From positions 62,001-126,000 of the forward strand of contig JAFLBQ010000006.1 of the NCBI GenBank assembly GCA_017303805.1: DNA of 64,000 nucleotides. Direction: 5' to 3'. The number at the start of each line of letters is the position of its first letter. The stretch's first letter is position 1. Shown here piece by piece: positions 20,095 to 50,581 of the stretch. The notes beneath the pieces were generated by a model. It did no database searches. It was not told where the DNA came from and saw only the letters and a list, made by a program, of their open reading frames with translations. The translations under genes and the position numbers were made by a program. Source of the DNA: Cytophagales bacterium (lineage in GTDB: Bacteria > Bacteroidota > Bacteroidia > Cytophagales > Cyclobacteriaceae).

Positions 20095-20099
20095 CCGGT

Positions 20100-21468: not shown

Positions 21469-21529
21469 ACACCCACCTGATCCCCACCTAACATTCGTTA
21501 TAATTCCTTTTTTAAAACTTTTATCACCT

Positions 21530-21558
21530 TTTGGTTGAAACTCATTACAAAATTTTTG
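21530..21558 (+). promoter_or_regulatory. Candidate ilv operon promoter
   Basis: TTTGG near 21530 is followed after about 17 nt by AATTTTTG (21551-21558), one base off the Bacteroidota TAnnTTTG -7 box. Transcription would start near 21565, about 18 nt before the leader peptide ATG. The match is imperfect. Confidence 0.35.
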
Positions 21559-21582
21559 AACCTTGTATGCACGCACAAGATT

Positions 21583-21681
21583 ATGAATCTGATTAACTAT
21601 CTCACTCAAATCAAAAACACACTGGCGGTGATCAGTGTGCTCGTGCTCAATGTCATTATTCTCCGAAAACCGGGGCTGTAA
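21583..21681 (+). CDS. ilv operon leader peptide (attenuator), 32 residues
   Basis: An open frame from ATG 21583 to TAA 21681 encodes 32 residues, of which 16 are Leu, Ile or Val (7 Leu, 5 Ile, 4 Val). It begins MNLINYLTQI and ends ILRKPGL. It lies between a promoter candidate and a strong terminator hairpin, upstream of ilvE. This is the architecture of ribosome-mediated attenuation as in the E. coli ilv operons. The seven Leu codons are CTC (4) and CTG (3). The last codons (CGGGGC, 21671-21676) can pair with GCCCCG (21707-21712) in the terminator, providing an antiterminator. Its short length explains why gene callers would miss it. Confidence 0.85.
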   Translation: MNLINYLTQIKNTLAVISVLVLNVIILRKPGL

Positions 21682-21702
21682 CGATATTGAAAAAAATATT
21701 GG

Positions 21703-21735
21703 AACCGCCCCGACTTATCGGGGCGGTTTTGTTTT
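21703..21735 (+). terminator. Intrinsic terminator/attenuator in the ilv leader
   Basis: AACCGCCCCGA and TCGGGGCGGTT form an 11-bp stem with a CTTA loop, followed by TTGTTTT. It sits 21 nt after the leader-peptide stop and 40 nt before ilvE. The alternative pairing of 21671-21676 with 21707-21712 would break it when a ribosome stalls earlier in the leader peptide. Confidence 0.9.
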
Positions 21736-21748
21736 ATAGATAAAATCG

Positions 21749-21764
21749 CAAACTAACGATTGTT
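21749..21764 (+). promoter_or_regulatory. Shared 16-nt element before ilvE
   Basis: CAAACTAACGATTGTT lies between the attenuator and ilvE, ending 10 bp before its ATG. The identical 16 bases occur at 32821-32836 just before leuC, also directly after a terminator. A role in translation initiation or co-regulation of both operons is inferred. Confidence 0.7.
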
Positions 21765-21774
21765 TTAGAACAGT

Positions 21775-22662
21775 ATGTACTTCACACCCAGCACCCAACT
21801 TTACCACAACGGAAAATTTGTAAAAGCCACAGAGGCTTCCACCGACCTGTATAGCCAAACGTTGCACTATGGCTATGGGGTTTTTGAAGGTATTCGTGCC
21901 TATAAAACCGTTAACGGTGTAAAAATTTTTAAAGCCCACGAACATTACGAGCGCCTGCTAAAGAGCTGCGCACTTGTAAGCATTCCTTTCAACTATTCAA
22001 TTGAAGACCTAACACAGATTTCGTACCAGGTATTGGAGCGAAATAACCTGAAGGATGCATACATCCGACCATTGGTGTACTGCGCTCCCAACATGACGTT
22101 GTCGGCCCCCACCGGAGTTTCATTTATGATAGCCGCGTGGGAGTGGGGCAAGTACCATGGCTTGCAATCGCTAAAGGTTTGCGTGTCTTCTTTTCAACGA
22201 CCCAACCCTAAGTCAGTAAAAATGGAAGCCAAGGTATGTGGTCATTATGTAAACTCCATCATGGCCACCAACGAAGCAAAGAAGCGGGGCTTTGATGAAG
22301 CATTAATGTTAGATATGAATGGCTTCGTGGCGGAAGGGCCCGGAGCCAATTTTTTTTATGAGAAAGATGGAGTGCTCTATACGCCACCACTCGGCAGCAT
22401 TTTACCCGGCATCACCCGGCAAACGGTTTTTGAAATCTGTCGCGAGATGGACCTGCCGCTGGTAGAGAAGTTGTTTCGCCCCGAAGAATTGTTCGAAGCC
22501 GATAGCGCCTTCTTCTGTGGTACAGCCGCTGAAGTAGTAGCCATCGAATCCATAGAAGGCCAGTTGTTTTCTAAACCGTGGAAACAATCTATGGGGGCAG
22601 TGGTACAAGAAGCTTATAAGTGTATTGTGTTAGATAAGAGTTATTCGTACGTGATTGTTTAA
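21775..22662 (+). CDS. ilvE: Branched-chain amino acid aminotransferase
   Basis: A 295-residue fold-type IV PLP enzyme. LHYGYGVFEGIRAYKT is the typical N-terminal motif; Lys153 in EAKVCGHYVNS should bind PLP; FVAEGPGANFFYEKDG and ILPGITRQTVFEI complete the family pattern. It transaminates the keto acids of Leu, Ile and Val with glutamate. It is the first structural gene after the attenuator. Homologues include D-amino acid transaminase and aminodeoxychorismate lyase, but operon context settles the role. Confidence 0.96.
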   Translation: MYFTPSTQLYHNGKFVKATEASTDLYSQTLHYGYGVFEGIRAYKTVNGVKIFKAHEHYERLLKSCALVSIPFNYSIEDLTQISYQVLERNNLKDAYIRPLVYCAPNMTLSAPTGVSFMIAAWEWGKYHGLQSLKVCVSSFQRPNPKSVKMEAKVCGHYVNSIMATNEAKKRGFDEALMLDMNGFVAEGPGANFFYEKDGVLYTPPLGSILPGITRQTVFEICREMDLPLVEKLFRPEELFEADSAFFCGTAAEVVAIESIEGQLFSKPWKQSMGAVVQEAYKCIVLDKSYSYVIV

Positions 22663-22666
22663 AGAA

Positions 22667-22743
22667 GTTGCTGGTTACTGGTTTCTTGTTGCTGGTAAAT
22701 CAGTAGCAAAACCAGAAGCCAGCAACCAGAAGCCAGCAACCCA
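22667..22743. repeat. Heptad repeat block a, between ilvE and ilvD
   Basis: Eleven 7-bp units (GTTGCTG, GTTACTG, GTTTCTT, GTTGCTG ... AAGCCAG, CAACCAG) fill the gap from just after the ilvE stop to just before the ilvD start. The left units are the reverse complement of the right ones, giving an imperfect hairpin of about 29 bp. Confidence 0.85.
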
Positions 22744-22745
22744 GA

Positions 22746-24425
22746 ATGGAACTTAATAAATATAGCCGCACCATCACCCAAGACCCTACACTACCCGCCT
22801 CGCAGGCCATGCTGTATGGAATTGGTTTGACGGAGCATGATTTGAAAAAAGCCCAGGTAGGAATTGTAAGTACCGGGTACGATGGCAATACCTGCAACAT
22901 GCACTTGAATGCATTAGCCAGCGAAGTAAAGCAGGCCGTATGGGATCAGGAGTTAGTAGGTTTGATTTTTAATACCATTGGTGTTAGCGATGGCATTGCC
23001 AACGGCACCGAGGGCATGCGCTATTCTTTGGTAAGTCGCGAAGTGATTGCCGACTCGATTGAAACAGTATGTGGGGCACAATATTATGATGGCTTGATTG
23101 CCGTGGTTGGGTGCGATAAAAATATGCCCGGTTCGCTTATCGCGATGGGAAGGCTGAACCGCCCGGCCATTATGGTATATGGTGGCACTATTGCCGGAGG
23201 CCATTATAAAGGTCGTGAGTTGAACATCATCTCTTCATTTGAAGCCCTTGGCGAAAAAATTCAAGGCAAGCTTTCGGATGAAGATTATAAAGGCATCATT
23301 CAAAATTCTTGTCCGGGTGCCGGAGCGTGTGGCGGCATGTACACAGCCAACACCATGGCCTCGGCCATTGAAGCATTGGGAATGGCGTTGCCTTATTCCT
23401 CTTCTAACCCGGCAGTAAGTAAAGAAAAGTCGGCTGAGTGCACCGAAGCGGCCAAAGCCATTCGGTTGTTGCTGGAAAAAGATCTTAAGCCGCGCGACAT
23501 TATGACGTTTAAGGCATTTGAAAATGCGATCACCGTGGTAATGGTACTTGGCGGATCTACCAATGCAGTGCTGCACTTAATCGCCATGGCAAAAAGTGTG
23601 GGAGTAAAAATCACCCAGGAAGATTTTCAGCGCATCTCCGATAAGACTCCCTTGATCGCTGATTTAAAACCAAGCGGTAAATATTTAATGGAGGCGCTGC
23701 ACAAAATAGGCGGTGTACCTTCTGTTATCAAATACTTATTAAGCAAAGGTTACCTGCATGGCGATTGTTTAACCGTTACCGGAAAAACTTTGGCCGAGAA
23801 TGTGGCCAACGCGAAAGATCTCGATTTCGACAAACAAGATGTAATTCTTCCATTTGAAAAACCGATTAAAAAGACCGGCCATTTGCAAATCCTTTATGGA
23901 AACCTGGCGCCCCAGGGGTCGGTGGCTAAAATTACCGGCAAGGAGGGCGAACGCTTTAAGGGCACTGCACGCGTATTTAATGGTGAGTTTGAATTGGTGG
24001 ATGGAATTAAATCCGGAAGGATAAAAGAAGGCGATGTGGTGGTTATCCGCTACGTGGGTCCGAAAGGTGCCCCTGGTATGCCGGAAATGTTAAAGCCGAC
24101 CAGTCTAATAATGGGCTCTGGCTTGGGTAAAAGTGTAGCGTTGATTACCGATGGAAGGTTTAGTGGTGGCTCACACGGGTTTGTGATTGGCCACATCACG
24201 CCCGAGGCGTTTGAAGGTGGTTTGCTTTCGTTAGTTGAAGATGGCGATTGGATTGAAATCGATGTAAAGAAACATCAGATCAATTTGCTGGTGGACGAAA
24301 AAACTATTGCGATCAGAAAGTCGCATTATAAAGCACCGGCTCTTCGGGTAAAGAGTGGTGTATTATATAAATATGCTCAACACGTAAAAACAGCTGCTGA
24401 TGGATGCGTTACTGACGAAGACTGA
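22746..24425 (+). CDS. ilvD: Dihydroxy-acid dehydratase
   Basis: A 559-residue iron-sulfur dehydratase. Candidate cluster cysteines are in [15 protein letters not shown] and [16 protein letters not shown], with further family motifs [16 protein letters not shown]-like APQGSVAK and [12 protein letters not shown]. It makes the 2-keto acids of Val and Ile in the cytosol and is oxygen-sensitive in many organisms. Length is normal. Its 3' end overlaps ilvB by 26 bp in another frame, so the two are translationally coupled. Confidence 0.97.
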
Positions 24426-26142
24426 GGAGAAGCCAGCTGCAACCAAACAAAAGATTTCCGGTTCGGAATCTTTGTTGCGTTGCCTGGTGGCTGAAAAAGT
24501 AGAACACATTTTCGGATATCCGGGTGGTGCCATCATGCCTGTGTACGATGCACTCTATCATTATGCCGATAAGCTAACGCACTTGCTTGTTCGCCACGAG
24601 CAAGGCGCCATACATGCAGCGCAAGGTTATGCACGGGTATCCGGAAAGACGGGAGTCGTTTTTGCTACTTCAGGCCCGGGTGCAACTAACTTAGTTACCG
24701 GATTGGCCGATGCGTTAATTGACTCAACACCGGTTGTCTGCATTACAGGCCAGGTGTTTGCGCACTTGTTAGGTACCGATGCGTTTCAGGAAACCGATGT
24801 GATCAACACCACCTTACCGGTTACCAAATGGAACGTGCAGGTAACCGAAGCCAAAGACATTGCTCCGGCCATTGCAAAAGCATTTTACATTGCGGCAAGC
24901 GGCAGGCCCGGCCCTGTGCTGGTGGATATAACCAAGAATGCACAGAACGAATTGATTGAAGAGTTTGAATACGAGGCATGCCAAGCGGTGCGCACGTACA
25001 AGCCAAAACCAGTTTTGCAATTAGCACAGGTAGAAGCCGCAGCGGAGTTAATCAACAATGCAAAGCGCCCGTACATTTTGGCTGGCCAGGGTATTTTGCT
25101 TGCCGGTGCTTCAAAAGAGTTACAAGCATTTTCAGAAAAAACGGGGATTCCGGTTGCCAGTACATTACTGGGTCTGGGTGCACTGCCGTGCGATCATCCC
25201 AATTACGTTGGTTATTTGGGTATGCATGGAAATTATGGGCCAAACATCAACACGAACCAGTGCGATGTATTGATTGCGATTGGAATGCGCTTTGATGATC
25301 GCGTAACAGGAAATGTGGGTAAGTATGCAAAGCAAGCCAAGGTAATTCATATTGACATCGACAAAGCGGAGATTAATAAAATCATTAGCCCAACTGTTGC
25401 TGTCCATGCCGATGCAAAAGAAGCGTTGCTTGCGTTAACAAAGCTCTGCACTAAAAATTCGTTTCCCGAATGGATCGGAAGCTTCAAAAAGCTAAACGAT
25501 GAAGAATTTGAAAAGGTAGTTGCGAAAGAAATCCGCAATACAGCAAGTCTTAAAATGGCCGAAGTAATCTACATGCTTTCCGAACTTACAAAAGGCGAAG
25601 CAGTAGTAGTTACCGATGTGGGCCAACACCAAATGGTAACTTCGCGCTATTATCAATATAAAAATCCGCGCACGAATGTTACTTCTGGTGGTGCAGGAAC
25701 TATGGGGTTTGCATTACCTGCAGCCATGGGCGCTAAAGTTGCTGTGCCCAACAAACAAGTTGTTGCCGTAATTGGCGATGGCGGTTACCAGATGACGGTA
25801 CAGGAGTTGGGTACGATTATGCAGTACAACATCTCGGTAAAAATTTTGGTGTTGAACAACAATTTCCTCGGCATGGTGCGCCAATGGCAGCAACTCTTTC
25901 ATGGCAAACGTTATTCCTTTACCGAAATGCAGAATCCGGATTTTGTAAAACTTGCGGAAGCTTATCGCATCCCGGCAGCAAAAGTAACCGAGCAAAAAAA
26001 TCTGGAAGTCGAATTAAAGAAGATGCTGGCCTCCGAAACTTCCTACTTCCTGGAAGTGGTGGTAGAAAAGGAAGATAATGTTTTCCCGATGGTGCCGGCT
26101 GGGGCGGGTGTAGCAGAAGTTATTTTGGAAATACCTAAGTAA
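24400..26142 (+). CDS. ilvB: Acetolactate synthase, large (catalytic) subunit
   Basis: A 580-residue ThDP enzyme. The N-terminal domain has [17 protein letters not shown], the catalytic Glu in [15 protein letters not shown] and [12 protein letters not shown]; the C-terminal domain has the ThDP motif [15 protein letters not shown], continuing [12 protein letters not shown]. It condenses pyruvate with pyruvate or 2-oxobutyrate. The start at 24400 lies inside ilvD; later in-frame ATGs would remove the conserved N-terminal part. The regulatory subunit gene ilvN follows after heptad block b. Confidence 0.97.
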
Positions 26143-26170
26143 TGAACGTAAATAGAATAAAAATGTCAAA

Positions 26171-26219
26171 GTTACCAGTTACCCATCACAGGCTACTGGT
26201 AACCGGAAACCGGTAACCA
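26171..26219. repeat. Heptad repeat block b, between ilvB and ilvN
   Basis: Exactly seven 7-bp units: GTTACCA, GTTACCC, ATCACAG, GCTACTG, GTAACCG, GAAACCG, GTAACCA. The outer units are reverse complements of one another (GTTACC/GGTAAC), so the block can fold. It ends 5 bp before the ilvN ATG. Confidence 0.85.
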
Positions 26220-26224
26220 AAAAC

Positions 26225-26515
26225 ATGAAACAAGATTATACACTAGAGATACTGGCTGAAAACAATTTTTCTATCCTTAATCGGATTGTGAATGTGCTTA
26301 ACCGCAGAAGGGTTCGTATTAAGAAATTAATGGCGCACGAAAACGAAAATGATTTTCGTAAAGGTGGCGCGGTGCTGTTACTTCATACAACCCCTGATTT
26401 GATGGAAAAGGTAAAACACCAGTTGGAAAAACTCATTGAGGTCGAGTATGCCAACTATACAGTGGGCAGCGATCACTACCTCGAACTAAGCGAGCGCATT
26501 GTTGATGTAGATTAA
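26225..26515 (+). CDS. ilvN: Acetolactate synthase, small (regulatory) subunit, short form
   Basis: A 96-residue ACT-domain protein: YTLEILAENNFSILNRIVNV is the first strand and helix of the ACT fold, followed by a basic segment and a second beta-alpha unit. It consists of one ACT domain only; long IlvN/IlvH proteins of about 160-180 residues carry an additional C-terminal domain. It should bind IlvB and may mediate valine feedback. Flanked by heptad blocks on both sides. Confidence 0.88.
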   Translation: MKQDYTLEILAENNFSILNRIVNVLNRRRVRIKKLMAHENENDFRKGGAVLLLHTTPDLMEKVKHQLEKLIEVEYANYTVGSDHYLELSERIVDVD

Positions 26516-26523
26516 ACTTAACG

Positions 26524-26586
26524 ACTCAATACTAAATACTCAATACTCAATACTCAATACTCAATACTAACTACTAAATACTAATT
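26524..26586. repeat. Heptad repeat block c, between ilvN and ilvC
   Basis: Nine 7-bp units, mostly ACTCAAT with ACTAAAT, ACTAACT and ACTAATT variants, all in one orientation. Unlike the other blocks this one is a plain tandem array without an inverted half. It ends 4 bp before the ilvC ATG. Confidence 0.9.
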
Positions 26587-26590
26587 AGAA

Positions 26591-27661
26591 ATGGCAAAGA
26601 TTAATTTTGGAGGTGTGATCGAAGATGTGGTTACCCGCGAAGAGTTTCCGATGGAGAAAGCGTTGGACGTAATGAAAAACGAGACCATCGCAATTATTGG
26701 CTACGGTGTGCAAGGTCCCGCACAGGCACTGAACCTCCGCGACAATGGCTTTAAGGTTATTGTGGGGCAACGCAAAGGTTCCAAAACGTGGGACAAGGCC
26801 GTATCGCACGGTTGGGTGCCAGGCGAAACTTTGTTCGACATTGAAGAAGCAGCCAAACGCGGAACGGTTATTCAGTTTCTGTTGTCGGATGCCGGACAAA
26901 TTTCTCTTTGGCCAACCATTAAGCCGTATCTTACTAAAGGCAAAACATTATACTTCTCGCATGGCTTTGGTATTACCTTCAAAGAACAAACCGGTATTGT
27001 ACCGTCTGCCGATGTGGATGTTATTCTGGCTGCCCCCAAAGGCTCAGGTACTTCGGTGCGCAGATTGTTTCTGCAAGGCAAAGGTATTAACGCAAGCTAT
27101 GCAGTATTTCAGAACGCTACCGGAAAGGCAACTGAAAAAGCTATTGCACTTGGCATTGGTGTAGGTGCAGGTTATTTATTTGAGACAGATTTCAAAAAAG
27201 AAGTTTACTCTGATTTAACTGGCGAACGCGGCACATTGATGGGCGCTATCGCAGGAATCTTCGAAGCTCAATACGAAGTACTGCGTGCTAAAGGGCACAC
27301 ACCATCCGAAGCGTTTAATGAAACGGTAGAAGAGCTAACGCAGTCATTAATGCCGCTGGTTGCTGAAAATGGAATGGACTGGATGTACGCCAATTGTTCT
27401 ACTACTGCACAGCGTGGTGCGTTGGATTGGAAAAAGAAATTTAAGGCGGCTACACTTCCGGTGTTTAAAGAATTGTACGAAAGCGTTGAAACGGGAGCTG
27501 AAGCAAAACGCACCATTGATACCTGCAGCAAGCCCGACTACCGCGAAAAGCTGGCCGAAGAATTAAAAGAGCTGCGCGAAAGCGAATTGTGGCAAGCTGG
27601 TGCTGCTGTGCGGGCACTGCGCCCCGAAAAAAACCAAGTGGAGGCATCGATGATCAATTAG
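26591..27661 (+). CDS. ilvC: Ketol-acid reductoisomerase
   Basis: A 356-residue enzyme. The Rossmann motif IAIIGYGVQGPAQALNLRDNG binds NAD(P)H, and the following loop GQRKGSKTW carries basic and Ser residues that favour NADPH. The knotted C-terminal domain contains SDLTGERGTLMGAIAGIFEAQYEVL and EELTQSLMPLVAENGMDWM with the metal-binding acidic residues. It converts acetolactate and acetohydroxybutyrate to dihydroxy acids. Length and motifs match the single-knotted (class I) group with small extensions seen in Bacteroidota. Confidence 0.96.
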   Translation: MAKINFGGVIEDVVTREEFPMEKALDVMKNETIAIIGYGVQGPAQALNLRDNGFKVIVGQRKGSKTWDKAVSHGWVPGETLFDIEEAAKRGTVIQFLLSDAGQISLWPTIKPYLTKGKTLYFSHGFGITFKEQTGIVPSADVDVILAAPKGSGTSVRRLFLQGKGINASYAVFQNATGKATEKAIALGIGVGAGYLFETDFKKEVYSDLTGERGTLMGAIAGIFEAQYEVLRAKGHTPSEAFNETVEELTQSLMPLVAENGMDWMYANCSTTAQRGALDWKKKFKAATLPVFKELYESVETGAEAKRTIDTCSKPDYREKLAEELKELRESELWQAGAAVRALRPEKNQVEASMIN

Positions 27662-27666
27662 TCCAG

Positions 27667-27722
27667 AGTCTTTAGTCTATAGTCGAAAGTTTTTAACTCA
27701 GGACTATAGACTAAAGACTATT
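27667..27722. repeat. Heptad repeat block d, between ilvC and ilvA, perfect 18-bp hairpin
   Basis: Eight 7-bp units starting AGTCTTT, AGTCTAT and ending GACTAAA, GACTATT. AGTCTTTAGTCTATAGTC (27667-27684) is perfectly complementary to 27702-27719, leaving a 17-nt loop. It lies between the ilvC stop and the ilvA start and would form a strong RNA hairpin inside the operon. Confidence 0.9.
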
Positions 27723-27734
27723 TACTGTATATAA

Positions 27735-28985
27735 ATGAATCAAACCCTCACCCCCTCTATCGACATCAATAAAGCCGCGTACGTGCTTAAGAACGTAGCG
27801 CTTAAAACTCCATTGCAGTTTCATCGCAAATTGTCGGAGAAGTTGGGTGCCGAGGTTTATCTGAAGCGCGAAGATTTACAGGTTGTGCGATCCTACAAAA
27901 TTCGTGGTGCGTACAATTTGATTCAAAGCCTTACCGATGAGCAGCGCAGCCGGGGTGTGGTATGCGCCAGTGCCGGCAATCATGCACAAGGTGTTGCGTT
28001 TTCGTGCCGCGAGTTAAAAATAAAAGGCGTTATCTACATGCCGGCTATTACTCCCAAGCAGAAAATTAACCAGGTAAGGATGTTTGGTGGCGATAACATT
28101 GAGATTGTTCTGATTGGCGACACGTTTGATGAGTGCCAGGCGCATGCATTACAATTCACCGATACCAATAAAATGGTTTTTATTCCGCCCTTCGATCATG
28201 CAAAAGTAATCGAAGGCCAGGGAACCGTTGCCAAAGAAATACTGGAAGAACAGTCGAATATTGATTTCGTATTTGTGCCCATTGGTGGGGGCGGTCTTTG
28301 TGCAGGTATGGGCACCTACTTTCAAACCTATGCGCCACAAACAAAAATTATTGGAGTCGAACCAACGGGCGCGCCTTCTATGAAAGAAGCCTTGCGGGCG
28401 GGTAAGCCGGTGGTGTTGGATAGCATTCAAAGGTTTGTGGATGGCGCCTCTGTAAAAAAGGTGGGCGACCTTACGTTTGAAATCAGTAAGGATAAAATTG
28501 CTGAGATGCTGTTGGTGCCGGAAGGCAAGGTAAGTTCTACCATTCTTCAACTATATAATGAAGATGCGATTGTAGCTGAACCTGCCGGAGCATTGTCTAT
28601 TGCAGCACTCGATCAATATGCGGCCAAACTTAAAGGCAAAAAAGTAGTTTGCATTTTAAGCGGGGGCAATAACGACATCGACCGGATGAATGAGATTAAA
28701 GAACGGTCTTTGCTGTATGAAGGACTTAAACACTATTTCATAGTTCGCTTTGCACAGCGCCCCGGAGCATTGAAGGAGTTTGTCAATCACATCCTTGGCC
28801 CCAACGATGATATCGTCCGGTTCGAGTTCATTCAAAAGCACAACAAAGAAACTGGTCCTGCTTTAATTGGTATTGAAGTAAAATCGCGCGAAGATTTTGC
28901 TACACTGATTGAACGCATGGACAGTCACAAACTCAACTACACCCTCGTAAACCAAAACGAGAATTTGTTTGAGTATTTAGTCTGA
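27735..28985 (+). CDS. ilvA: Threonine ammonia-lyase (threonine dehydratase), biosynthetic
   Basis: A 416-residue fold-type II PLP enzyme. Lys55 in VRSYKIRGAYN should bind PLP; SAGNHAQGVAFSCRELK and the phosphate-binding GGGGLCAGMGTY follow, then SGGNNDIDR. The C-terminal ~90 residues (YFIVRFAQRPGALKEFVNHIL) form a single ACT-like regulatory domain, as in the short IlvA type. It makes 2-oxobutyrate from threonine, the entry to isoleucine. It is the last gene of the ilv operon. Confidence 0.95.
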   Translation: MNQTLTPSIDINKAAYVLKNVALKTPLQFHRKLSEKLGAEVYLKREDLQVVRSYKIRGAYNLIQSLTDEQRSRGVVCASAGNHAQGVAFSCRELKIKGVIYMPAITPKQKINQVRMFGGDNIEIVLIGDTFDECQAHALQFTDTNKMVFIPPFDHAKVIEGQGTVAKEILEEQSNIDFVFVPIGGGGLCAGMGTYFQTYAPQTKIIGVEPTGAPSMKEALRAGKPVVLDSIQRFVDGASVKKVGDLTFEISKDKIAEMLLVPEGKVSSTILQLYNEDAIVAEPAGALSIAALDQYAAKLKGKKVVCILSGGNNDIDRMNEIKERSLLYEGLKHYFIVRFAQRPGALKEFVNHILGPNDDIVRFEFIQKHNKETGPALIGIEVKSREDFATLIERMDSHKLNYTLVNQNENLFEYLV

Positions 28986-29014
28986 AACACGCTAAAATTT
29001 CTATTCCCTTCTGA

Positions 29015-29059
29015 TTGAATTTTTTAGTATTTGTAATACATTTGTATTACAAAAATACA
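29015..29059 (+). promoter_or_regulatory. Promoter with overlapping operator of the toxin-antitoxin pair
   Basis: TTG (29015-29017) and TACATTTG (29037-29044) are separated by 19 nt, a good Bacteroidota promoter. The -7 box sits inside an inverted repeat, TTTGTAATAC-ATTT-GTATTACAAA (29030-29053), which extends imperfectly on both sides. It lies 10 bp upstream of the antitoxin ATG and is the likely autoregulation site. Confidence 0.7.
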
Positions 29060-29062
29060 TGT

Positions 29063-29311
29063 ATGCTTACCGTGCGCTTATCAGAAGAAGAGGAAGAACA
29101 ATTAAATGCCTACTGCTTGCGCGAAGGTATCTCTAAATCGATAGTAGTAAAGGAAGCCATCGAAATGTATCTTACCCAACGCAAAAAAAGCAAAAACCCC
29201 TTCGAGGCAGGTGTAGATCTCTTTGGTCTGGAAGGCAGCGGCACAAAAAATAATTCCGTTAGCTACAAGAAGAAAGTAAAAGAGCTACTGCGTGAAAAGC
29301 ATTCTCATTGA
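29063..29311 (+). CDS. Ribbon-helix-helix antitoxin
   Basis: ATG 29063 is preferred over 29015 because the upstream part is promoter. The 82-residue protein begins MLTVRLSEEEEEQLNAYC, continues GISKSIVVKEAIEMYL (a CopG/RHH fold) and has a flexible C-terminal tail that would wrap the toxin. It overlaps the PIN toxin gene by 20 bp. It should repress its own promoter through the inverted repeat at 29030-29053. Confidence 0.8.
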   Translation: MLTVRLSEEEEEQLNAYCLREGISKSIVVKEAIEMYLTQRKKSKNPFEAGVDLFGLEGSGTKNNSVSYKKKVKELLREKHSH

Positions 29312-29705
29312 TGCGGGGCCGTTGATCGCTTTGTTTGATAAGAGCGATAGCTACCACGAACAAGCCATTTCTTTTCTTAAAAATTTCAAAGGCCGGTTAT
29401 TCACAACCTGGCCGGTTGTTACCGAAGCCTCGCACATGCTGGGATTTAGCGTAAAAGTTCAAATTGCCTTGCTCGAATGGATCAACCGTGGCGGTTTATA
29501 CCTGATTGAAATTGAGACTTATCACCTAACCCGATTGATTGAGCTATCAGAAAAGTTTAAGGATGTGCCGATGGATCTTGCCGATGCTACCTTGATTGTG
29601 GCCGCTGAATCCAATAACATTAAAGAAATTGTCACCATCGATTCTGACTTTTACATCTATAGAGATGTGCGCAAACGTTACCTGAAGAATATCTTTATCA
29701 AATAA
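29292..29705 (+). CDS. PIN-domain (VapC-like) toxin
   Basis: A 137-residue protein starting at GTG 29292. PIN acidic residues are present: Asp in SILIDAGPLIALFD, Glu in VVTEASHML, Asp in MDLADATLIVAAE and Asp in IVTIDSDFYIYR. It should be a ribonuclease neutralised by the RHH protein encoded just upstream. Unlike the PIN gene at 3845 this one is intact. The module lies between ilvA and the leu operon, and both flanking operons remain complete. Confidence 0.85.
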   Translation: MKSILIDAGPLIALFDKSDSYHEQAISFLKNFKGRLFTTWPVVTEASHMLGFSVKVQIALLEWINRGGLYLIEIETYHLTRLIELSEKFKDVPMDLADATLIVAAESNNIKEIVTIDSDFYIYRDVRKRYLKNIFIK

Positions 29706-29774
29706 TTATTCTTATTTAAGCTGTCTGAAACTCTCCTCGTAAATGGCTATCTTGTGACACAATTTACATAGATT

Positions 29775-30548
29775 ATGGCGCAAGGTTTACTGATAGATAT
29801 GGATGGCGTGGTGTACGGTGGTGATGTGATGATTCCGGGAGCGGATGTTTTTATTGCCCGACTACTAAAGGATAATATTCCCTTCAGTTTTATGACCAAC
29901 AACAGCCAGCGCACCCGCCTCGAAGCGGTACGCAAGTTGGCCCGGTTGGGTATTAACGTTACCGAAAAGCATGTTTATACGAGTGCCATGGCTACCGGAA
30001 AGTTTCTGGCCAGCCAAACGCCTAATGGCACTGCTTATGTGTTGGGCGAAGGCGGGTTAATCTCATCGCTGCACGAAAATGGAATTACATTAGTCAATAC
30101 CGACCCCGATTTTGTGGTGCTGGGTGAAGGCCGCAATTTCACTTTGGAAATGGTACAACGTGCAGTGGATATGATTTTGGCCGGAGCGAAGTTTGTAACT
30201 ACCAATCGCGACCCATCACCCAAAAAGAAAGGGTGGGATAACCTGGGCATTGCCTCTACTACCGCCATGATTGAAGAAGCTACCGGCATTAAAGCATTTG
30301 TTGTAGGTAAACCCGGTCCTGTAATGATGCGCGGTGCACGCAAAGCACTGGGGTTGGAAACAGCCGAGACTACCATTATTGGCGATACGATGGATACTGA
30401 CATTCGTGGCGGAGTGCAAATGGGTTACAAAACCATTCTGGTACTTAGCGGCATAACCAAAAAGGAACATTTAATTCGGTACGCCTATAAACCTGATCTG
30501 GTGGTGGAATCGGTTAATGAAATAAAGCTGCCCTTACCATGGTGGTAA
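29775..30548 (+). CDS. HAD-superfamily phosphatase, NagD-like (class IIA)
   Basis: A 257-residue protein. Motif I LLIDMDGVVYGG carries the nucleophile Asp; motif II is FMTNNSQRTR; the cap region reads VVLGEGRNFT; motif III Lys lies in VGKPGPVMMRGA and motif IV is IIGDTMDTDIRGG. This is the NagD/AraL-type phosphatase group that acts on sugar or nucleotide phosphates; the substrate cannot be told. It stands between the toxin gene and a GH97 gene on the same strand. Confidence 0.88.
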   Translation: MAQGLLIDMDGVVYGGDVMIPGADVFIARLLKDNIPFSFMTNNSQRTRLEAVRKLARLGINVTEKHVYTSAMATGKFLASQTPNGTAYVLGEGGLISSLHENGITLVNTDPDFVVLGEGRNFTLEMVQRAVDMILAGAKFVTTNRDPSPKKKGWDNLGIASTTAMIEEATGIKAFVVGKPGPVMMRGARKALGLETAETTIIGDTMDTDIRGGVQMGYKTILVLSGITKKEHLIRYAYKPDLVVESVNEIKLPLPWW

Positions 30549-30578
30549 GCCGGAAGCGCGGGCTCAACACGAAACCTT

Positions 30579-32639
30579 ATGCGATATCTGTTTATTATTT
30601 CTGCGCTGTTCTCATTTCAGTCCGGTATTGCACAGAATTACACAGTTTATTCTCCAGCCAGAAAAATAGCCGTTTCGATTTCCAATAATCAGGTTCTTAG
30701 CTATCAGATAAATTATAAAGGCAAGGTGGTAATTAAACCATCGCAATTGGGCTTCAAACTTAATAAGCCCAATGTTATCTTATCGCACTTTGATGTAGTA
30801 ACGGTTGACTCTCTGGTGTACAACGAGGCCTGGACACCGGTATGGGGCGAGGTAAATAAAATCAACAATCATTACAAAGAGATAACGATTACTTTAGCTG
30901 ATAAATCGCCACACGCCATTACCTTCAAGGTTGTGTTTCGGGTGTACGATGAGGGTGTGGGCTTTCGGTATGAATTTCCGGGCCAGGTAAATAAATACCT
31001 GATTGTTGGCGATGAGCTTACGCAGTTTAGTCTTGCGGGCGACCACAAAACCTTTTGGATTCCGGGTGATTATGATACCAACGAATATTTGTACAACACT
31101 ACCCGGTTAAGCGAAATCGATGCGGTTACAGCAGCCAACAAAGAGCCAGACATCGCAGTAAAATCTGTAATCGGACCCGATGCCATTCAAACCCCGGTGC
31201 TACTGAAAACTGCAGACGGCCTTTACATCAGCCTGCACGAGGCAGCGCTTAGTAACTATCCGGCCATGCACCTTAACCTCGATAAGCCCACACTTACCTT
31301 TCAGGCACATCTTGTTCCGGATGCGGTAGGTAATAAAGCATACCTGGAAAATCCTGCGCGCACTCCCTGGCGTACAATTATTATAAGTGATAAAGCCACT
31401 GAACTCCTGGCTTCAAAAATGATTTTAAATCTGAATGAACCTACCCGGTTTGCTACAACGGAATGGATCAAACCGCAAAAATTTGTAGGGATGTGGTGGG
31501 AGATGCACATCGGCAAAGCCACCTGGGAACTTGCCAGCGGTAAGCATGGTGCGAATACGGCTAACGTAAAACGCTATATCGATTTTGCATCGAAGCATGG
31601 ATTTGATGGCGTATTGGTTGAAGGTTGGAATGTAGGCTGGGAAGATTGGTTTGGAAACTGGAAAGAAGATGTGTTTGATTTTATCACTCCCTATCCTGAT
31701 TACGATTTGAAAGGTCTAACAAAGTATGCCAAACAAAAAGGGGTACAAATTATTATGCACCACGAAACATCTGGGTCGGCCTTTAATTATGAACGCTGGC
31801 TGGATAAGGCGTTTCAGTTTATGAACGACAACAATATGAACACTGTTAAAACCGGTTATGTTGGAAAGATCATTCCCCGGGGCGAGCATCACGACAGTCA
31901 ATGGATGATTAATCACTATCAACGGGTTGCTGAAAAAGCAGCGGAGCACAAAATTATGGTTGCCTCGCACGAATCGGTGCGCCCCACCGGGCTGCATCGT
32001 ACCTACCCAAACTGGATGGCCTCAGAAGCAGCACGTGGAAGTGAATTCAACAACGCCCCTGCATTAGGAATTACTCCTGAGCATACCACCATACTTCCTT
32101 TTACCCGGTTAATGGGCGGGCCAATGGATTTCACACCAGGGCTTTTTCGTTTTAAGTTAAATCAATTTGAACCTACGCGTACTACAGAAGTACGCACTAC
32201 CCTGGCTAAGCAATTGGCGTTATATGTTACCATTTATAGTCCGTTGCAAATGGTAGCCGATTTACCCGAGAACTATGAAAAGCACACCGATGCACTGCAG
32301 TTTATTGTAGATGTGCCCGTAGATTGGGATGACACTAAAATTCTCGAAGCTGAACCAGGCGATTACCTGACTGTAGCCCGCAAAGCAAAAAATAAAAACG
32401 ATTGGTGCCTCGGTGCCATTACAGACGAGAACAGCCGCGTACTCAATCTAAACTTTGATTTTCTGGACGCGGGTAAAAAATACCATGCCAGTATCTATCG
32501 CGATGGGGAGCAGGCACATTGGAAAACAAATCCGGAGGCGTATGTAATCGAGAAAAAATTGGTTACGAAGAAAACAAAAATCAAAATCAACCTTGCGCCC
32601 GGGGGCGGTTGTGCTATCAGCATCCGCGAAGTAAAATAA
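30579..32639 (+). CDS. Glycoside hydrolase family 97, SusB-like alpha-glucosidase
   Basis: A 686-residue protein with a signal peptide (about 1-18, ending GIAQN), an N-terminal beta-sandwich, a TIM barrel and a C-terminal beta domain. Glu396 in HHETSG, Glu465 in SHESVRPTG and Glu489 in RGSEFN show the same spacing (69 and 24 residues) as Glu439, Glu508 and Glu532 of Bacteroides SusB, which fits the inverting, calcium-dependent subgroup. It should release glucose from alpha-glucans in the periplasm. No SusCD pair is near it. A leu-operon leader follows its stop codon. Confidence 0.92.
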   Translation: MRYLFIISALFSFQSGIAQNYTVYSPARKIAVSISNNQVLSYQINYKGKVVIKPSQLGFKLNKPNVILSHFDVVTVDSLVYNEAWTPVWGEVNKINNHYKEITITLADKSPHAITFKVVFRVYDEGVGFRYEFPGQVNKYLIVGDELTQFSLAGDHKTFWIPGDYDTNEYLYNTTRLSEIDAVTAANKEPDIAVKSVIGPDAIQTPVLLKTADGLYISLHEAALSNYPAMHLNLDKPTLTFQAHLVPDAVGNKAYLENPARTPWRTIIISDKATELLASKMILNLNEPTRFATTEWIKPQKFVGMWWEMHIGKATWELASGKHGANTANVKRYIDFASKHGFDGVLVEGWNVGWEDWFGNWKEDVFDFITPYPDYDLKGLTKYAKQKGVQIIMHHETSGSAFNYERWLDKAFQFMNDNNMNTVKTGYVGKIIPRGEHHDSQWMINHYQRVAEKAAEHKIMVASHESVRPTGLHRTYPNWMASEAARGSEFNNAPALGITPEHTTILPFTRLMGGPMDFTPGLFRFKLNQFEPTRTTEVRTTLAKQLALYVTIYSPLQMVADLPENYEKHTDALQFIVDVPVDWDDTKILEAEPGDYLTVARKAKNKNDWCLGAITDENSRVLNLNFDFLDAGKKYHASIYRDGEQAHWKTNPEAYVIEKKLVTKKTKIKINLAPGGGCAISIREVK

Positions 32640-32680
32640 ATCGCCAAACACCTGTAAGGAAGCCCCTAACATCTTCTCTT

Positions 32681-32716
32681 TTTGCTTGAGTAATACAGAA
32701 TCATTACTCATATTTG
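32681..32716 (+). promoter_or_regulatory. Candidate leu operon promoter
   Basis: TTG at 32686-32688 is followed after 20 nt by CATATTTG (32709-32716), one base off the -7 consensus. It is followed by GAACC, as is the -7 box proposed for the ilv operon. The proposed transcript would have a leader of about 50 nt before the hairpin. Confidence 0.35.
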
Positions 32717-32772
32717 AACCAGTTATTAGCGAATCGAAATGATTACCCAATAACCTAACCTAAACCTAATGT

Positions 32773-32809
32773 AAACCGTCCCGCCTCTGGTGGGACGGTT
32801 TCGTTTTTT
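32773..32809 (+). terminator. Intrinsic terminator in the leu leader
   Basis: AAACCGTCCCGCC pairs with GGTGGGACGGTTT (13 bp with one G-T pair) around a TCT loop, followed by CGTTTTTT. It could end the GH97 transcript, act as an attenuator for leuC, or both. The bases after its stem resemble those after the ilv attenuator. Confidence 0.88.
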
Positions 32810-32820
32810 ATAGTCGGGAA

Positions 32821-32836
32821 CAAACTAACGATTGTT
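32821..32836 (+). promoter_or_regulatory. Shared 16-nt element before leuC
   Basis: CAAACTAACGATTGTT, identical to 21749-21764 before ilvE. Here it directly abuts the GTG start of leuC. It replaces any recognisable ribosome-binding site. Confidence 0.7.
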
Positions 32837-34249
32837 GTGAGCGAGCAAAAACCGAAAACAATTTTTGAAAAAATCTGGGATGCACATGTTGTAAAACGTG
32901 CCACTGGTTACCCTGATGCTTTATTTATTGATCGTCATTATATACATGAAGTTACCAGTCCACAGGCATTTGATGGTTTGCGCAAGCGCGGTATAAAAGT
33001 TTTTAATGTAAACCGCACCACAGCAACGGCCGATCATAATGTACCTACCAAAGATCAACACCTTCCGATCAAAGAAGCATTATCAAGACATCAGGTAGAA
33101 ACACTGCGAAAAAACTGTAAAGAGTTTGGTGTTGAGTTGTATGATCTGGGGCATCCGTTTCAAGGTATTGTGCATATTATTGGGCCCGAGTTGGGTTTAA
33201 CACAACCTGGCATGACGATGGTGTGTGGCGATAGTCATACTTCTACACATGGCGCGTTCGGTAGCGTGGCGTTTGGTATTGGCACTTCCGAAGTAGAACA
33301 AGTATTGGCCACCCAATGCATTTTGCAATACAAGCCCAAAACCATGAAGATTGAAATCAATGGTAAGTTGGGCAAGGGTGTGGTCAGCAAAGACATTATT
33401 TTATATATCATTTCAAAAATTTCAGCCAGTGGTGCCACTGGCTTTTTTGTTGAATATGCGGGCGATGCTATTCGCAACCTTTCGATGGAAGCGCGGATGA
33501 CCATTTGCAACATGAGTATTGAAATGGGTGCCCGCGGTGGGTTGATTGCCCCCGATGAAACCACCTTCGCCTATATGAAGGGACGAAAGTTTGCACCGCA
33601 AGGCGAAGCCTTTGAGAAGGCAGTTGAAAAATGGAAGCAACTTCCATCCGATGCAGACGCTGCGTACGATACCGTTTTACAATTTGATGCAGCCGACATA
33701 GCCCCGATGATTACTTACGGAACGAATCCGGGCATGGGCATGAAGGTAACGGATCGCATTCCTACTGTTGAAGAACTGAAAGAAATTAATGAGCAGGCTT
33801 CATTTAAAAAGTCGCTGGACTACATGGGTCTTGAACCTGGCTCAGCACTACTGGGCAAAGCGGTGGACTATGTATTTATAGGCAGTTGCACGAATGCCCG
33901 CATCGAAGATTTGCGATTGGTTGCGTCTATTGTGAAAGGAAAGAAGAAGGCCCCGAATGTGGAAGTGTGGGTGATACCCGGATCGAAACAAGTAGAGGCC
34001 CAAGCCTTAAAGGAAGGTTTGAACAAAGTATTTGAAGAAGCCGGATTTGAATTGCGCGGCCCCGGCTGCTCGGCTTGCCTGGGTATGAATGAAGATAAGG
34101 TGCCACCCGGAAAGTATTGCATCAGCACCAGCAATAGAAATTTTGAAGGAAGACAAGGCCCGAAGTCAAGAACATTTTTGGCTAGTCCGCTAAGTGCTGC
34201 AGCCGCTGCGATTACAGGCAAAGTAACAGATGTACGAGATCTGATTTAA
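32837..34249 (+). CDS. leuC: 3-isopropylmalate dehydratase, large subunit
   Basis: A 470-residue aconitase-family protein starting at GTG. It contains [14 protein letters not shown] and the cluster cysteines in [12 protein letters not shown] and [13 protein letters not shown], which hold the [4Fe-4S] centre with LeuD as partner. Length is normal. It is the first gene of the leu operon, preceded by a terminator and the shared 16-nt element; a cupin gene lies between it and leuD. Confidence 0.97.
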
Positions 34250-34250
34250 T

Positions 34251-34592
34251 ATGGTGATTTCATTGCAAGACACGTTATCGAATTTACCATTGCCGGCCAC
34301 GCCTAAGTGGCCTCATGGCGTTTGGGATATTGAAGTGCTGAAGCATGGCACCATGTCGCTGATTGCGTACAAACCTACGGTGCAAGATTTTCAGACCACG
34401 CACGAACAAGATGAACTTTATATTGTGATGGCCGGAGTAGCCGACTTAATTATTGAAGGCATACCCCATGCTTGCAAAACAGGCGATGCCTTATTTGTCC
34501 CAGCTTTAAAAAATCATCGCTTCGAAAATTTTTCAGATGACTTTGTGGTGTGGGCAATTTTTTGGGGACCTAAAGGCGGTGAGCGTATTTAA
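34251..34592 (+). CDS. Small cupin-domain protein inside the leu operon
   Basis: A 113-residue single-domain cupin. The first cupin motif is seen as TTHEQDELYIVMAGVADLIIEG with His and Glu ligands, and the second as GDALFVPALKNHRFENFS with His. It starts one base after the leuC stop and ends 9 bp before leuD, so it is embedded in the operon and very likely co-translated with it. No leu pathway enzyme of this kind is known to me. Sensing or isomerising a pathway intermediate, or a metal-related role for the LeuCD cluster, are open possibilities. Confidence 0.85.
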   Translation: MVISLQDTLSNLPLPATPKWPHGVWDIEVLKHGTMSLIAYKPTVQDFQTTHEQDELYIVMAGVADLIIEGIPHACKTGDALFVPALKNHRFENFSDDFVVWAIFWGPKGGERI

Positions 34593-34601
34593 GATTTACA
34601 A

Positions 34602-35186
34602 ATGGCAAAAGAAAAATTCATAACATTAAAATCAACAGCAGTACCCTTACCGGTAGAAAATATTGATACCGATCAGATAATACCTGCACGTTTCTTAAAA
34701 GCTACAACGCGCGAAGGCTTTGGCGATAACCTGTTTCGCGATTGGCGTTTTGATGGTGACAATAATCCCATTAAAGAATTTGCATTGAACAATGCCGCAT
34801 ACAGCGGTAAGATTCTTGTAGCCGGAAAAAATTTTGGCTGTGGAAGTAGTCGCGAGCACGCAGCCTGGGCTATTTACGATTATGGTTTCCGCGTAGTGGT
34901 GTCCAGTTTCTTTGCGGATATTTTTAAAAATAACGCACTGAACAATGCCGTGCTACCGGTAGTGATTTCCGAAAAGTTTTTACAAAGTCTGCTCATAGCC
35001 ATTCAACAAAATCCAAAAACAGAAGTAACAGTTGATCTGACCCAACAACAAATCAGCTTTGATGGCCAGGCCGAGCAATTTGAGATTAATGCCTATAAAA
35101 AAGAATGTTTAATTAATGGGTACGATGATATCGACTACCTGTTGAGTTTGAATAAAGAGATCAGAGAATTTGATTTAGCACACTGA
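34602..35186 (+). CDS. leuD: 3-isopropylmalate dehydratase, small subunit
   Basis: A 194-residue swivel-domain protein with [14 protein letters not shown] near the N terminus, [19 protein letters not shown] and [15 protein letters not shown], all standard for LeuD. It pairs with LeuC to isomerise 2-isopropylmalate. It is followed by heptad repeat block e, which starts within 3 bp of its stop codon. Confidence 0.96.
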
Positions 35187-35188
35187 TA

Positions 35189-35258
35189 GTTGCTGGTCAC
35201 TGGTTGCTCGTTCCTCGTTAACGGATCGTAAACCAGAAACCAGAAGCGAGAAACCAGA
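35189..35258. repeat. Heptad repeat block e, between leuD and leuB
   Basis: Ten 7-bp units: GTTGCTG, GTCACTG, GTTGCTC, GTTCCTC, GTTAACG, GATCGTA, then AACCAGA three times with AGCGAGA interposed. The two halves are roughly complementary (GCTCGTT/AGCGAG, CTGGT/ACCAG). It covers nearly the whole leuD-leuB gap. Confidence 0.82.
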
Positions 35259-35261
35259 AGC

Positions 35262-36380
35262 ATGGAAAAGAAAATAATTATACTACCCGGAGACGGTATC
35301 GGCAAAGAAGTAACCACCGAAGGTAAGAAGGTATTAGAGAAAATTGCCGGACTATTCAATCATCAGTTTGAATTTGATTCGGCCACCATTGGCCACGATG
35401 CCATTGAAGCCACGGGCAATCCGTTGCCAGATGAAACCTTAACGAAACTAAAAAACTGCGATGCAATTTTATTTGGTGCGGTGGGCCATCCGAAATACGA
35501 TAACGATCCTACTTTAAAAGTAAGACCCGAACAAGGGTTACTCAAAATGCGCAAAGAACTAGGTTTGTATGCTAACCTGCGCCCCATAAAATTATTTGAT
35601 GAATTGCTTGAAGCCTCCAGCATCAAACCCGAAATCCTGAAAGGCTCTGATATCCTTTTCTTTCGTGAGTTAACTGGTGATGTGTATTTCGGTGAAAAGG
35701 GAAGAAAAGACGAAGGCAAAACAGCCTACGATCTGATGATCTATCAGAAATATGAAATAGAACGTATTGCCCACAAAGCTTTTCAGGCAGCGCGTACCCG
35801 AAAAAAGAAAGTAACCTCGGTAGATAAAGCCAACGTGTTAGAAAGTTCGCGCTTGTGGCGCGAAGTGGTGAATGAAGTAAGTAAGCACTATCCGGATATA
35901 ACCCTCGAGCATCAGTTCATTGATGCAGCCGCTATGAAACTGATTCAAAACCCAAAAAGTTTTGATGTGGTGCTAACCGGAAATTTATTCGGTGATATTC
36001 TTACCGATGAGGCCTCGCAGATCGCAGGTTCTATGGGAATGTTGGCATCAGCTTCGGTGGGTGATAAAGTGGGATTGTACGAACCCATCCACGGAAGTGC
36101 CCACGACATAACCGGTAAAGGTATTGCAAATCCGTTAGCCTCCATTTTGTCAGCCGCTTTGCTGCTCGATATTTCCTTTGGATTGAAAGAAGAATCAGAC
36201 GCAGTGATTAAAGCGGTGGAAGCTACCTTGAAGGCTGGCTATAGAACTGCCGACATTGCGGATAGTAAAACAGCAAAAGATAAAATCCTGAATACCCAGC
36301 AAATGGGAACGCAGATCTTAAATGAGTTGAAAAAAGTTGCCAGTTACCAGACATCGGTAGCAAGCAACGGTAACCAGTAA
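35262..36380 (+). CDS. leuB: 3-isopropylmalate dehydrogenase
   Basis: A 372-residue NAD-dependent decarboxylating dehydrogenase. [18 protein letters not shown] opens the protein, [13 protein letters not shown] carries substrate-binding residues, [17 protein letters not shown] and [16 protein letters not shown] the metal-binding Asp residues, and [14 protein letters not shown] the NAD site. The last ~14 residues (from [10 protein letters not shown]) are encoded by heptad block f and lie beyond the usual family end, so the C terminus is probably a repeat-derived extension without function. Confidence 0.95.
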
Positions 36381-36384
36381 CAAT
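36336..36384. repeat. Heptad repeat block f, overlapping the end of leuB
   Basis: Seven 7-bp units: GTTGCCA, GTTACCA, GACATCG, GTAGCAA, GCAACGG, TAACCAG, TAACAAT. It codes for the last 14 residues and stop of LeuB and ends 7 bp before the leuA ATG. GTTACC and GGTAAC units allow folding. Confidence 0.78.
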
Positions 36385-36391
36385 TCAAACC

Positions 36392-37555
36392 ATGAGTAAC
36401 AAAATTCAAATATTTGATACAACCCTCCGCGATGGCGAGCAGGTACCTGGCTGCCAGTTAAAAACGGAAGAGAAGATTATTATAGCGCGCGAGCTGGAAG
36501 CGTTGGGTGTGGATGTGATTGAAGCCGGCTTTCCCATTTCAAGTCCCGGTGATTTTTTGTCGGTAGTGGAAATTTCCAAGGCGGTGAAAGAGCCCGTAGT
36601 GTGCGGGCTTACGCGTTCAAAGAAAGAGGATATAGATGTAGCTGCCGAAGCGCTGCGCCATGCCAGGCGCGGCCGCATCCATACCGGCATCGGCTCAAGC
36701 GATGTGCACATCAAACATAAATTCAGAAGCAGCCGCGAGCAGGTGTTGGAACAGGGCGTGTGGGCAACCAAATATGCAAAAGAAAAAGGCTACGAAGTGG
36801 AGTTCTATGCCGAAGATGCCGGCAGGGCTGATTTAAAATTTCTGGCGCAGCTTACCGAAGCGGTTATTGCGGCTGGTGCCGATGTGGTAAATATTCCGGA
36901 TACCACCGGGTATTGCTTGCCGCATTTATATGGCAAACGCATTCAATATTTAATAGAGAATGTGAAGAATATCGATAAAGCTATTCTTTCTGTTCATTGC
37001 CACAATGATTTGGGCATGGCCACTGCCAATACAATTTCGGGGTTGATAAGCGGAGCGCGCCAGGCCGAAGTAACTATTAATGGTATTGGCGAGCGTGCCG
37101 GCAATACCTCGTTGGAAGAAGTGGCGATGACGCTCAAAGTGCATAAAGACCTTGATCTTTACACCAACATCAAATCCGAAAGAATCTTTGAAATCAGTCA
37201 CTTGGTAAGCAGCATGATGCGCATGCCGGTGCAAGCCAACAAAGCGATTGTAGGTAAAAATGCTTTTGCACACTCTTCGGGCATTCACCAGGACGGGTTT
37301 TTGAAACATGCCGAAAACTATGAGATCATCAATCCGGCTGATGTGGGTGTACCATCATCATCCATTGTGTTAACAGCACGCAGTGGCCGGGCGGCTTTGA
37401 AGCATAGGCTGGAACTGCTGGGATATAATGTGGCAGGCGATGATCTTAATACAGTTTACGAAAGCTTTCTGGTTGTTGCGGATGAAAAGAAGGAGGTAAA
37501 CGATGGCGATCTGATAATGATTGTATCCAACCTGCCTGTACTGGTTAAGCCTTAG
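36392..37555 (+). CDS. leuA: 2-isopropylmalate synthase, short form
   Basis: A 387-residue DRE-TIM metallolyase: [43 protein letters not shown] with two metal-binding His residues, and [13 protein letters not shown]. It lacks the ~120-residue C-terminal LeuA dimer/allosteric domain of the ~510-residue enzymes, so leucine feedback inhibition through that domain should be absent. Homocitrate or citramalate synthase are related alternatives, but the leuCDB context supports LeuA. It is the last gene of the operon. Confidence 0.92.
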
Positions 37556-37602
37556 ACTAAAAGTTCTTTTTCAAAACCGAAGGCTTTTTGTAGATTTAAT
37601 CT

Positions 37603-38436: not shown

Positions 38437-38443
38437 GGGTAGC

Positions 38444-50551: not shown

Positions 50552-50581
50552 GAATTGTAAGAGATTTAAAAATTCAACGAA

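Follow-up and report, generated by a model that had tools for sequence, protein, structure and literature searches.

Why do the gaps between consecutive ilv and leu genes hold DNA whose period is fixed at 7 bp and whose letters differ from gap to gap? The question arises from a 64,000-nucleotide stretch of a Cytophagales bacterium (the window; G000:C10:62001-126000 in a genome of 4.29 Mb), in which a first-pass annotation had described six blocks of heptamer units among the genes ilvE, ilvD, ilvB, ilvN, ilvC, ilvA, leuC, leuD, leuB, and leuA (named here by NCBIfam). The answer to which we lean, with some reservation, is that slippage-type copying in 7-bp steps supplies the sequence and that selection on transcript shape keeps what fits. 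Judged by sequence similarity, the window genome belongs to Bacteroidota, close to Chryseolinea and other Cytophagales; the nearest relatives of its ilvC are from Cytophagales bins, Dawidia, Chryseosolibacter, and Chryseolinea (very near records were possibly left out).

We compared the best lag-7 score of each of the 37 window gaps of at least 25 bp with 300 dinucleotide shuffles. In five gaps (22663-22745, 26143-26224, 26516-26590, 27662-27734, and 35187-35261), none of the 300 shuffles equaled the observed score (z, 3.5 to 7.6), and lag 7 beat every other lag from 3 to 15; the signal is thus stronger than in shuffled sequence. All six blocks, read on the + strand, lie where the first-pass annotation had placed them. 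Block 1 (22667-22743, ilvE-ilvD gap) is a two-armed GTTNCTG/CAGNAAC array with a minimum free energy (MFE) of -35.7, a fold z of -5.6, and a higher-order 14-bp unit, AACCAGAAGCCAGC, in 2.6 copies. Block 2 (26171-26219, ilvB-ilvN gap) is a two-armed GTTACCA/GGTAACC array (fold z, -2.5), and block 3 (26524-26586, ilvN-ilvC gap) is a single-armed ACTCAAT array without a fold (MFE, 0). Block 4 (27663-27722, ilvC-ilvA gap) is a two-armed AGTCTTT/GACTATA array that forms a long hairpin (MFE, -29.4; z, -6.5), and block 5 (35189-35258, leuD-leuB gap) is a two-armed GTTGCTG/CCAGAAG array (fold z, -2.9) with a 14-bp unit, AGAAACCAGAAGCG, in 1.9 copies at 100%. Near-perfect units are confined to the ACTCAAT block (39 of 42 lag-7 matches), the other four tested gaps having 22 to 28 of 42. 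Block 6 (36336-36384) is a weak array (65 of 2,000 shuffles equal its score; fold z, -3.6) that forms the 3′ end of leuB (35262-36380) and crosses its stop. The first-pass annotation had the blocks run almost exactly from stop to start, which fails for block 6 because all except its last 4 bases fall within the leuB frame; here the array writes the C-terminal tail of LeuB, and this tail varies among species. The reverse-complementary second half that it assigned to five blocks agrees with their folding (z, -2.5 to -6.5), the ACTCAAT block being the sixth. That other window gaps hold no such block is true at the sensitivity of the 37-gap test: gap 39781-40223 reached p = 0.043 at lag 7, which is chance level for 37 tests, and the remaining gaps without arrays had p of at least 0.10.

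Whether folding belongs to the heptamers or to the place can be read from the same gap in relatives with and without arrays. We took z below -2 as a fold and dropped gaps outside 30 to 250 bp; for ilvC-ilvA this left 35 sequences, our own included. One or more genomes enter twice (G005 and L022), and relatedness means that the genomes are not independent. The ilvC-ilvA gap folds in all 15 cases with arrays, which belong to several heptamer families, and in 13 of 20 without (28 of 35 in total); by eye, some of the array-free folds resemble ordinary terminator hairpins. The ilvN-ilvC gap, on the other side of ilvC (ilvN and ilvC together, 26225-27661), folds in only 3 of 18 cases with arrays and 1 of 21 without. 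Since the contrast between the two gaps is the same with arrays (p = 1e-6) and without them (p = 5e-5), the fold goes with the gap and not with the heptamer, which supports the selection on structure that the first-pass annotation had offered as one possibility.

The arrays themselves change length by whole units between close relatives. In the pair G012/G023 (260,690 aligned bases, 91.4% identical), 11 of 133 orthologous gaps pass the array threshold, and gap identity is 0.71 for array gaps versus 0.90 for the others. Indels of at least 6 bp are multiples of 7 in 7 of 15 cases in array gaps (p = 0.0027) versus 8 of 41 in other gaps (p = 0.22), and the whole-unit differences in array gaps are 7, 14, 28, and 49 bp. 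Genomes G007 and G049 differ by 42 bp, or six units, in paaC-paaD, and in ilvN-ilvC each arm shows one change between G009 and G024 (90% identical), of 13+1 bp in one arm and 14 bp in the other, for a total of 28. Unit order carries a similar trace: array L311 of our own genome runs through GTTGCTG, GTTACTG, GTTACTT, and ATTACT-type units, and across 186 arrays ordered pairs of different units were repeated 27 times, compared to 10.1 after permutation (maximum, 26 in 500 permutations). The length differences and the repeated pairs support the other possibility named at first pass, copying or slippage. Unit similarity also depends on distance (Hamming, 2.59, 2.95, 3.41), a measure that we did not use because the arrays had been selected by lag 7.

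In one pair, arrays have also been replaced outright. Between G009 and G024, another heptamer family has taken their place, with sharp edges and conserved flanks: the nearest 100-base windows past the ilvC-ilvA, leuD-leuB, and leuB-leuA gaps are 0.88 to 0.99 identical, and the replacement edges fall where LeuB and IlvA are variable at their ends. The leuD-leuB array is common to G009 and G010 (z = 49), and therefore G024 is probably the changed one. The paaC-paaD gap of G012/G023 was dropped as clean evidence of replacement, its flanks being themselves more divergent (0.82 to 0.90 before the gap and 0.76 to 0.87 after it, versus 0.92 to 0.97 further upstream). Conservation of our own arrays is likewise uneven: G008 and G012 have retained the leuD-leuB array well (z, 54.9 and 30.2 at 83 to 84% flank identity), and the ilvC-ilvA array is not conserved in G045 (z = 0.5). 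Ordinary conservation in relatives, which the first-pass annotation had counted against its own reading, is thus seen for some arrays and not for others.

Some array gaps contain additional DNA. In the leuD-leuB gap (L265, G023:C1), an insert of about 520 bp lies within the array in G023 and is absent from G012. Three gaps of 620 to 690 bp (L295, ilvN-ilvC of G048; L292, ilvC-ilvA of G052; L259, paaC-paaD of G009) seem by eye to hold extra genes, and L292 and L259 show an array-like hairpin at the start of the gap.

Arrays have a preferred place relative to genes. Among 1,253 gaps of 25 to 400 bp, with genes from a simple open-frame caller, arrays occupy 103 of 909 co-directional gaps, 5 of 208 divergent gaps, and 6 of 136 convergent gaps (co-directional versus the rest, p = 1.6e-6), and the short co-directional array gaps are probably transcribed. 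In the 54 co-directional array gaps that fold, the first half is the T-richer in 39 and the second half the A-richer in 40, and therefore the arm next to the start codon tends to be the T-poor one. Predicted promoters are at shuffle level (29 versus 29.2) and predicted terminators near it (24 versus 19.6; standard deviation, 4.5), with no terminator-like site on the + strand within the blocks. In window positions 20000-40000, the sole Rfam match at E up to 1 was the microRNA family mir-7385 on block 4 (26.9 versus a 69-bit gathering score), which, lying below the gathering score, we took as chance.

Although the first-pass annotation tied the repeats to the ilv and leu operons, that setting is not special; heptamer arrays occur elsewhere in the genome and the genus and widely in Bacteroidota. 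Taking 19 of 28 lag-7 matches as the minimum for an intergenic block, we counted 74 at lag 7 and 37 at lag 14, with 0 to 5 at each other lag from 4 to 19, in a genus sample of 12 genomes and 1.6 Mb (456 kb of our own and 1.14 Mb from 11 others). Lag-7 density per 10 kb of intergenic DNA is 3.9 in our own genome, 5.3 in the genus sample, 3.5 in loci L011-L025, and 3.5 in 100 kb of G028. It is 10.9 in 14 Chitinophagaceae loci, 16.5 in 11 Mucilaginibacter loci, 10.2 (9 blocks) in six bins of Prevotellaceae, Azobacteroides, and Odoribacteraceae, and a background-level 0.5 (2 blocks) in 22 loci of Rikenellaceae and other Bacteroidales, values for named groups that are not genome averages because they were taken from loci around ilvC. 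No lag-7 block was found in 100 kb of Escherichia coli K-12. By direct pattern search, ATTCAANATTCAANATTCAA was found in 25 of the 296 Bacteroidota genomes searched, with 9 genomes matched by its reversed control, which is not clean because a reversed heptamer can itself be a family; three exact copies of GTTNCTG occur in 7 of 40 genus genomes, with no match for the reversed control. The period is always seven in the window, as the first-pass annotation stated, and relatives additionally carry, less often, similar arrays with a period of 8 or 9 bp. Degenerate 8-bp-periodic arrays were seen in L226, L228, L046, L066, L081, and L084 (e.g., ATGTGCAG/CATCTGCA), some with an inverted second arm.

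In the account that we favor, degenerate tandem arrays, mostly of 7-bp units, would be renewed by slippage-type copying in DNA synthesis, whole units being gained or lost and variant units spreading along an arm. In two-armed gaps, hairpin-mediated template switching may hold both arms in one heptamer family, and the simplest copying step would be slipped-strand synthesis plus template switching across the hairpin; sharp family swaps may come from short-tract exchange between arrays. Arrays would persist in short co-directional gaps, where selection on the transcript would preserve the shape that each gap needs: a hairpin in ilvC-ilvA (for termination, processing, or stability) and an unfolded leader ahead of the start codon in ilvN-ilvC. 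Because selection would act on transcript shape, the letters would be nearly free, with period and shape kept.

Several observations weigh against this account. The ilvB-ilvN gap breaks the gap rule: it folds in 11 of 13 cases with arrays versus 1 of 10 without, so that there the fold goes with the array itself. Co-directional gaps without arrays often fold too (55 of 150 with z below -2, versus 54 of 93 array gaps). The direct contrast of 7n indels between array and nonarray gaps in G012/G023 gives p = 0.085, their share rises to 7 of 8 only with three poorly alignable array gaps set aside, and among the 11 "array" gaps, L196 4986, with 95% identity, scarcely counts as an array. The excess of repeated unit pairs comes mainly from a few arrays. 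Slippage alone would predict gradual change, yet the ilvC-ilvA and leuD-leuB arrays of G009 and G024 are dissimilar (z, 0.4 and -0.5), and their leuB-leuA array has by eye also changed, lying partly inside leuB in G024. Heptamer families recur across gaps and species, and many arrays are simply inherited: at a flank identity of at least 0.85, 12 of 16 gap pairs still match (z of at least 6) and 4 do not. The corresponding counts are 33 matching and 25 not among 64 pairs at 0.80 to 0.85, and 31 and 151 among 198 pairs at 0.70 to 0.80 (flank identity for paaC-paaD being approximated by that of leuB).

Some of these points would suit a different origin of the sequence. Very short recombination or conversion tracts, anchored in conserved gene ends, could circulate a genus-wide pool of families as cassettes, a possibility that we consider real and somewhat unlikely. 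Such exchange would fit the sharp-edged replacements in G009/G024 and the G012/G023 paaC-paaD replacement, which lies within a tract of also more divergent flanks. It would also fit the sharing of families within a genome: different gaps of one genome are alike (z of at least 5) in 28.6% of 56 pairs versus 12.5% after label shuffling (p = 0.0015), and a second measure on 89 arrays agrees (p = 0.001). However, loops and ends differ between the supposed cassettes, and whole-unit length changes require slippage or unequal exchange anyway. Moreover, same-family arrays match across different gaps with z up to 23, and therefore similarity at the same gap does not prove allelic descent. Discrete alleles handed from species to species, an idea first prompted by the likeness of distant species at the same gap, were weakened by this and rejected. 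We also give limited credence to a process beyond ordinary slippage, present in many Bacteroidota, that would write arrays into intergenic gaps with a preferred 7-nt step and could overwrite one family with another in the time separating two sister species, both arms together, so that hairpins evolve without base-by-base covariation and 8- and 9-bp arrays come from the same process with another step.

A mobile hairpin element with 7-bp-periodic arms that inserts after stop codons, similar to a miniature inverted-repeat transposable element (MITE) or a repetitive extragenic palindromic (REP) sequence, is very improbable. Probing our own genome with five of the window blocks and scoring 40 of 62 candidates, we obtained 69 matches (E up to 10), among them five self-matches of the blocks and one match to the opposite strand of block 4. 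Of 25 loci examined, 23 are in gaps; the 25 include block 4, and several repeat a place already matched. Of 17 distinct places outside the window, 16 are in gaps, which, like the hairpin form, is what such an element would produce. Yet dispersed near-identical copies were not found among the 40 of 62 candidates scored, the best nonself match being 80% over query positions 9-79 and the others partial, a result that also counts against cassettes. With no full-length near-identical pair among these places, a single-armed array in the window, and different families at one site in sister species, a single mobile element is disfavored, as the first-pass annotation had held. Equally hard to credit is a role of the heptamers as direct repeats recognized by a regulatory protein that binds DNA or RNA. 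SARP regulators bind heptameric direct repeats, and CspB is described in the accessible text of PMC4679880 as able to bind heptamer repeats; against this, unrelated heptamers stand within one genome and even one operon, and the same gap switches family between sister species. Functionless filler, with slippage arrays accumulating wherever change is tolerated, is rather improbable in our judgment, even though it would account for the low identity of array gaps (0.71 versus 0.90), the intrusion of arrays into LeuB tails, and ilvB-ilvN folding mostly where an array is present (11 of 13 versus 1 of 10). What speaks for shape selection over filler is that the fold state of ilvC-ilvA and ilvN-ilvC is unchanged with or without arrays.

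The arrays are a variant of a kind of heptamer repeat already described in bacteria (Nostoc trnL, Xanthomonas, and Beggiatoaceae). Tandem heptanucleotides are also described for Calothrix PCC 7601 (PMC4692102). Such repeats are known as STRR. The comparisons below follow the cited papers as far as their accessible text goes. In the P6b stem of the Nostoc tRNA-Leu(UAA) group I intron (PMC4476775), degenerate heptamers (Class I, TDNGATT; Class II, NNTGAGT) line both sides of a hairpin with whole-unit indels, and two families replace each other with a similar fold, much as ilvC-ilvA folds in 15 of 15 cases with several families. The arms and the family switch with a kept fold are thus shared; the location differs, being ilv and leu gaps with no trnL intron here, and one cyanobacterial intron locus there contrasts with many protein-gene gaps per genome and many families in Bacteroidota. 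The GGGAATC and GGGGA(C/T)T heptamers of Xanthomonas and Nostoc (Rehm et al. 2015, PMC4692102) are likewise intergenic, heterogeneous in their units, rarer between divergent genes, and extensively variable at the same gaps in sister species, with some inverted. Those repeats are G-rich, could form G-quadruplexes, and come preferentially as four units, whereas ours comprise many other families in hairpins or unfolded stretches, and the six window blocks as read have no GGG-periodic unit. TAACTGA repeats of Beggiatoaceae, found also in five Bacteroidetes (MacGregor 2015, PMC4679880), are direct repeats of 7 bp, most of them shortly before a start codon, and were proposed as a site for a posttranscriptional regulator. 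They have a fixed unit, with a single inverted repeat in the BOGUAY genome, in contrast to the variable units and hairpins here; the window unit types are GTTNCTG, ACTCAAT, and AGTCTTT, none of them TAACTGA. The same study mentions that some Bacteroidetes gaps hold other heptamer repeats as well.

Bacterial genomes have been known since 2007 to carry an excess of heptamers, for which polymerase slippage has stayed a hypothesis and no function has been settled (PMC4692102). Among long simple sequence repeats of 1 to 11 nt, heptamers are the commonest, a result attributed to Mrazek et al. 2007 (PMC4679880, PMC4692102); slippage is the proposal in both cases, there tied to the polymerase footprint, and as described in these two papers that work made no link to fold or gap and had no Bacteroidota among the richest genomes. 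Our arrays share with such repeats the head-to-tail intergenic 7-bp units and the whole-unit variation, not the near-perfect units. Among the matches listed in the open-license literature, we found no description of multifamily degenerate heptamer arrays in Bacteroidota, nor does the accessible text of PMC4060949 and PMC12306157 describe such arrays. The new part seems to be the many-family, gap-shaped, widespread form in Bacteroidota.

Some other genes of the window stand out. IlvN (26225-26515) has just 96 aa and scores far under the curated cutoffs of acetolactate synthase small-subunit models. The + strand at 41166-44057 encodes a protein of 963 aa in which DUF285 repeats, periodic at 75 bp in the DNA, occur together with a CHU_C type IX secretion domain. 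At 47444-52066 (- strand), a second DnaE-like DNA polymerase III alpha (1,035 aa with a PHP domain) scores above the polc superfamily cutoff and under the DnaE equivalog cutoffs; it adjoins a DNA polymerase IV (DinB) gene, and the two may form an error-prone pair. Relatives at E of 1e-150 occur in 44 of 296 Bacteroidota genomes, our own included. An error-prone polymerase as the array writer was considered and rejected: a relative occurs in 7 of 25 genomes with the ATTCAAN pattern versus 37 of 271 without (p = 0.07), a weak test because the pattern represents one family only, and such a polymerase is not required for arrays because 18 of the 25 lack it.

Because the same named gaps can be followed in about 30 related genomes, with and without arrays, copying (7n steps and family switches) can be separated from selection (a fold kept in at least two gaps), and both are open to study on the same few dozen bases. 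Our reading further suggests that such hairpins would escape base-by-base covariation tests, since the two arms would be rewritten together.

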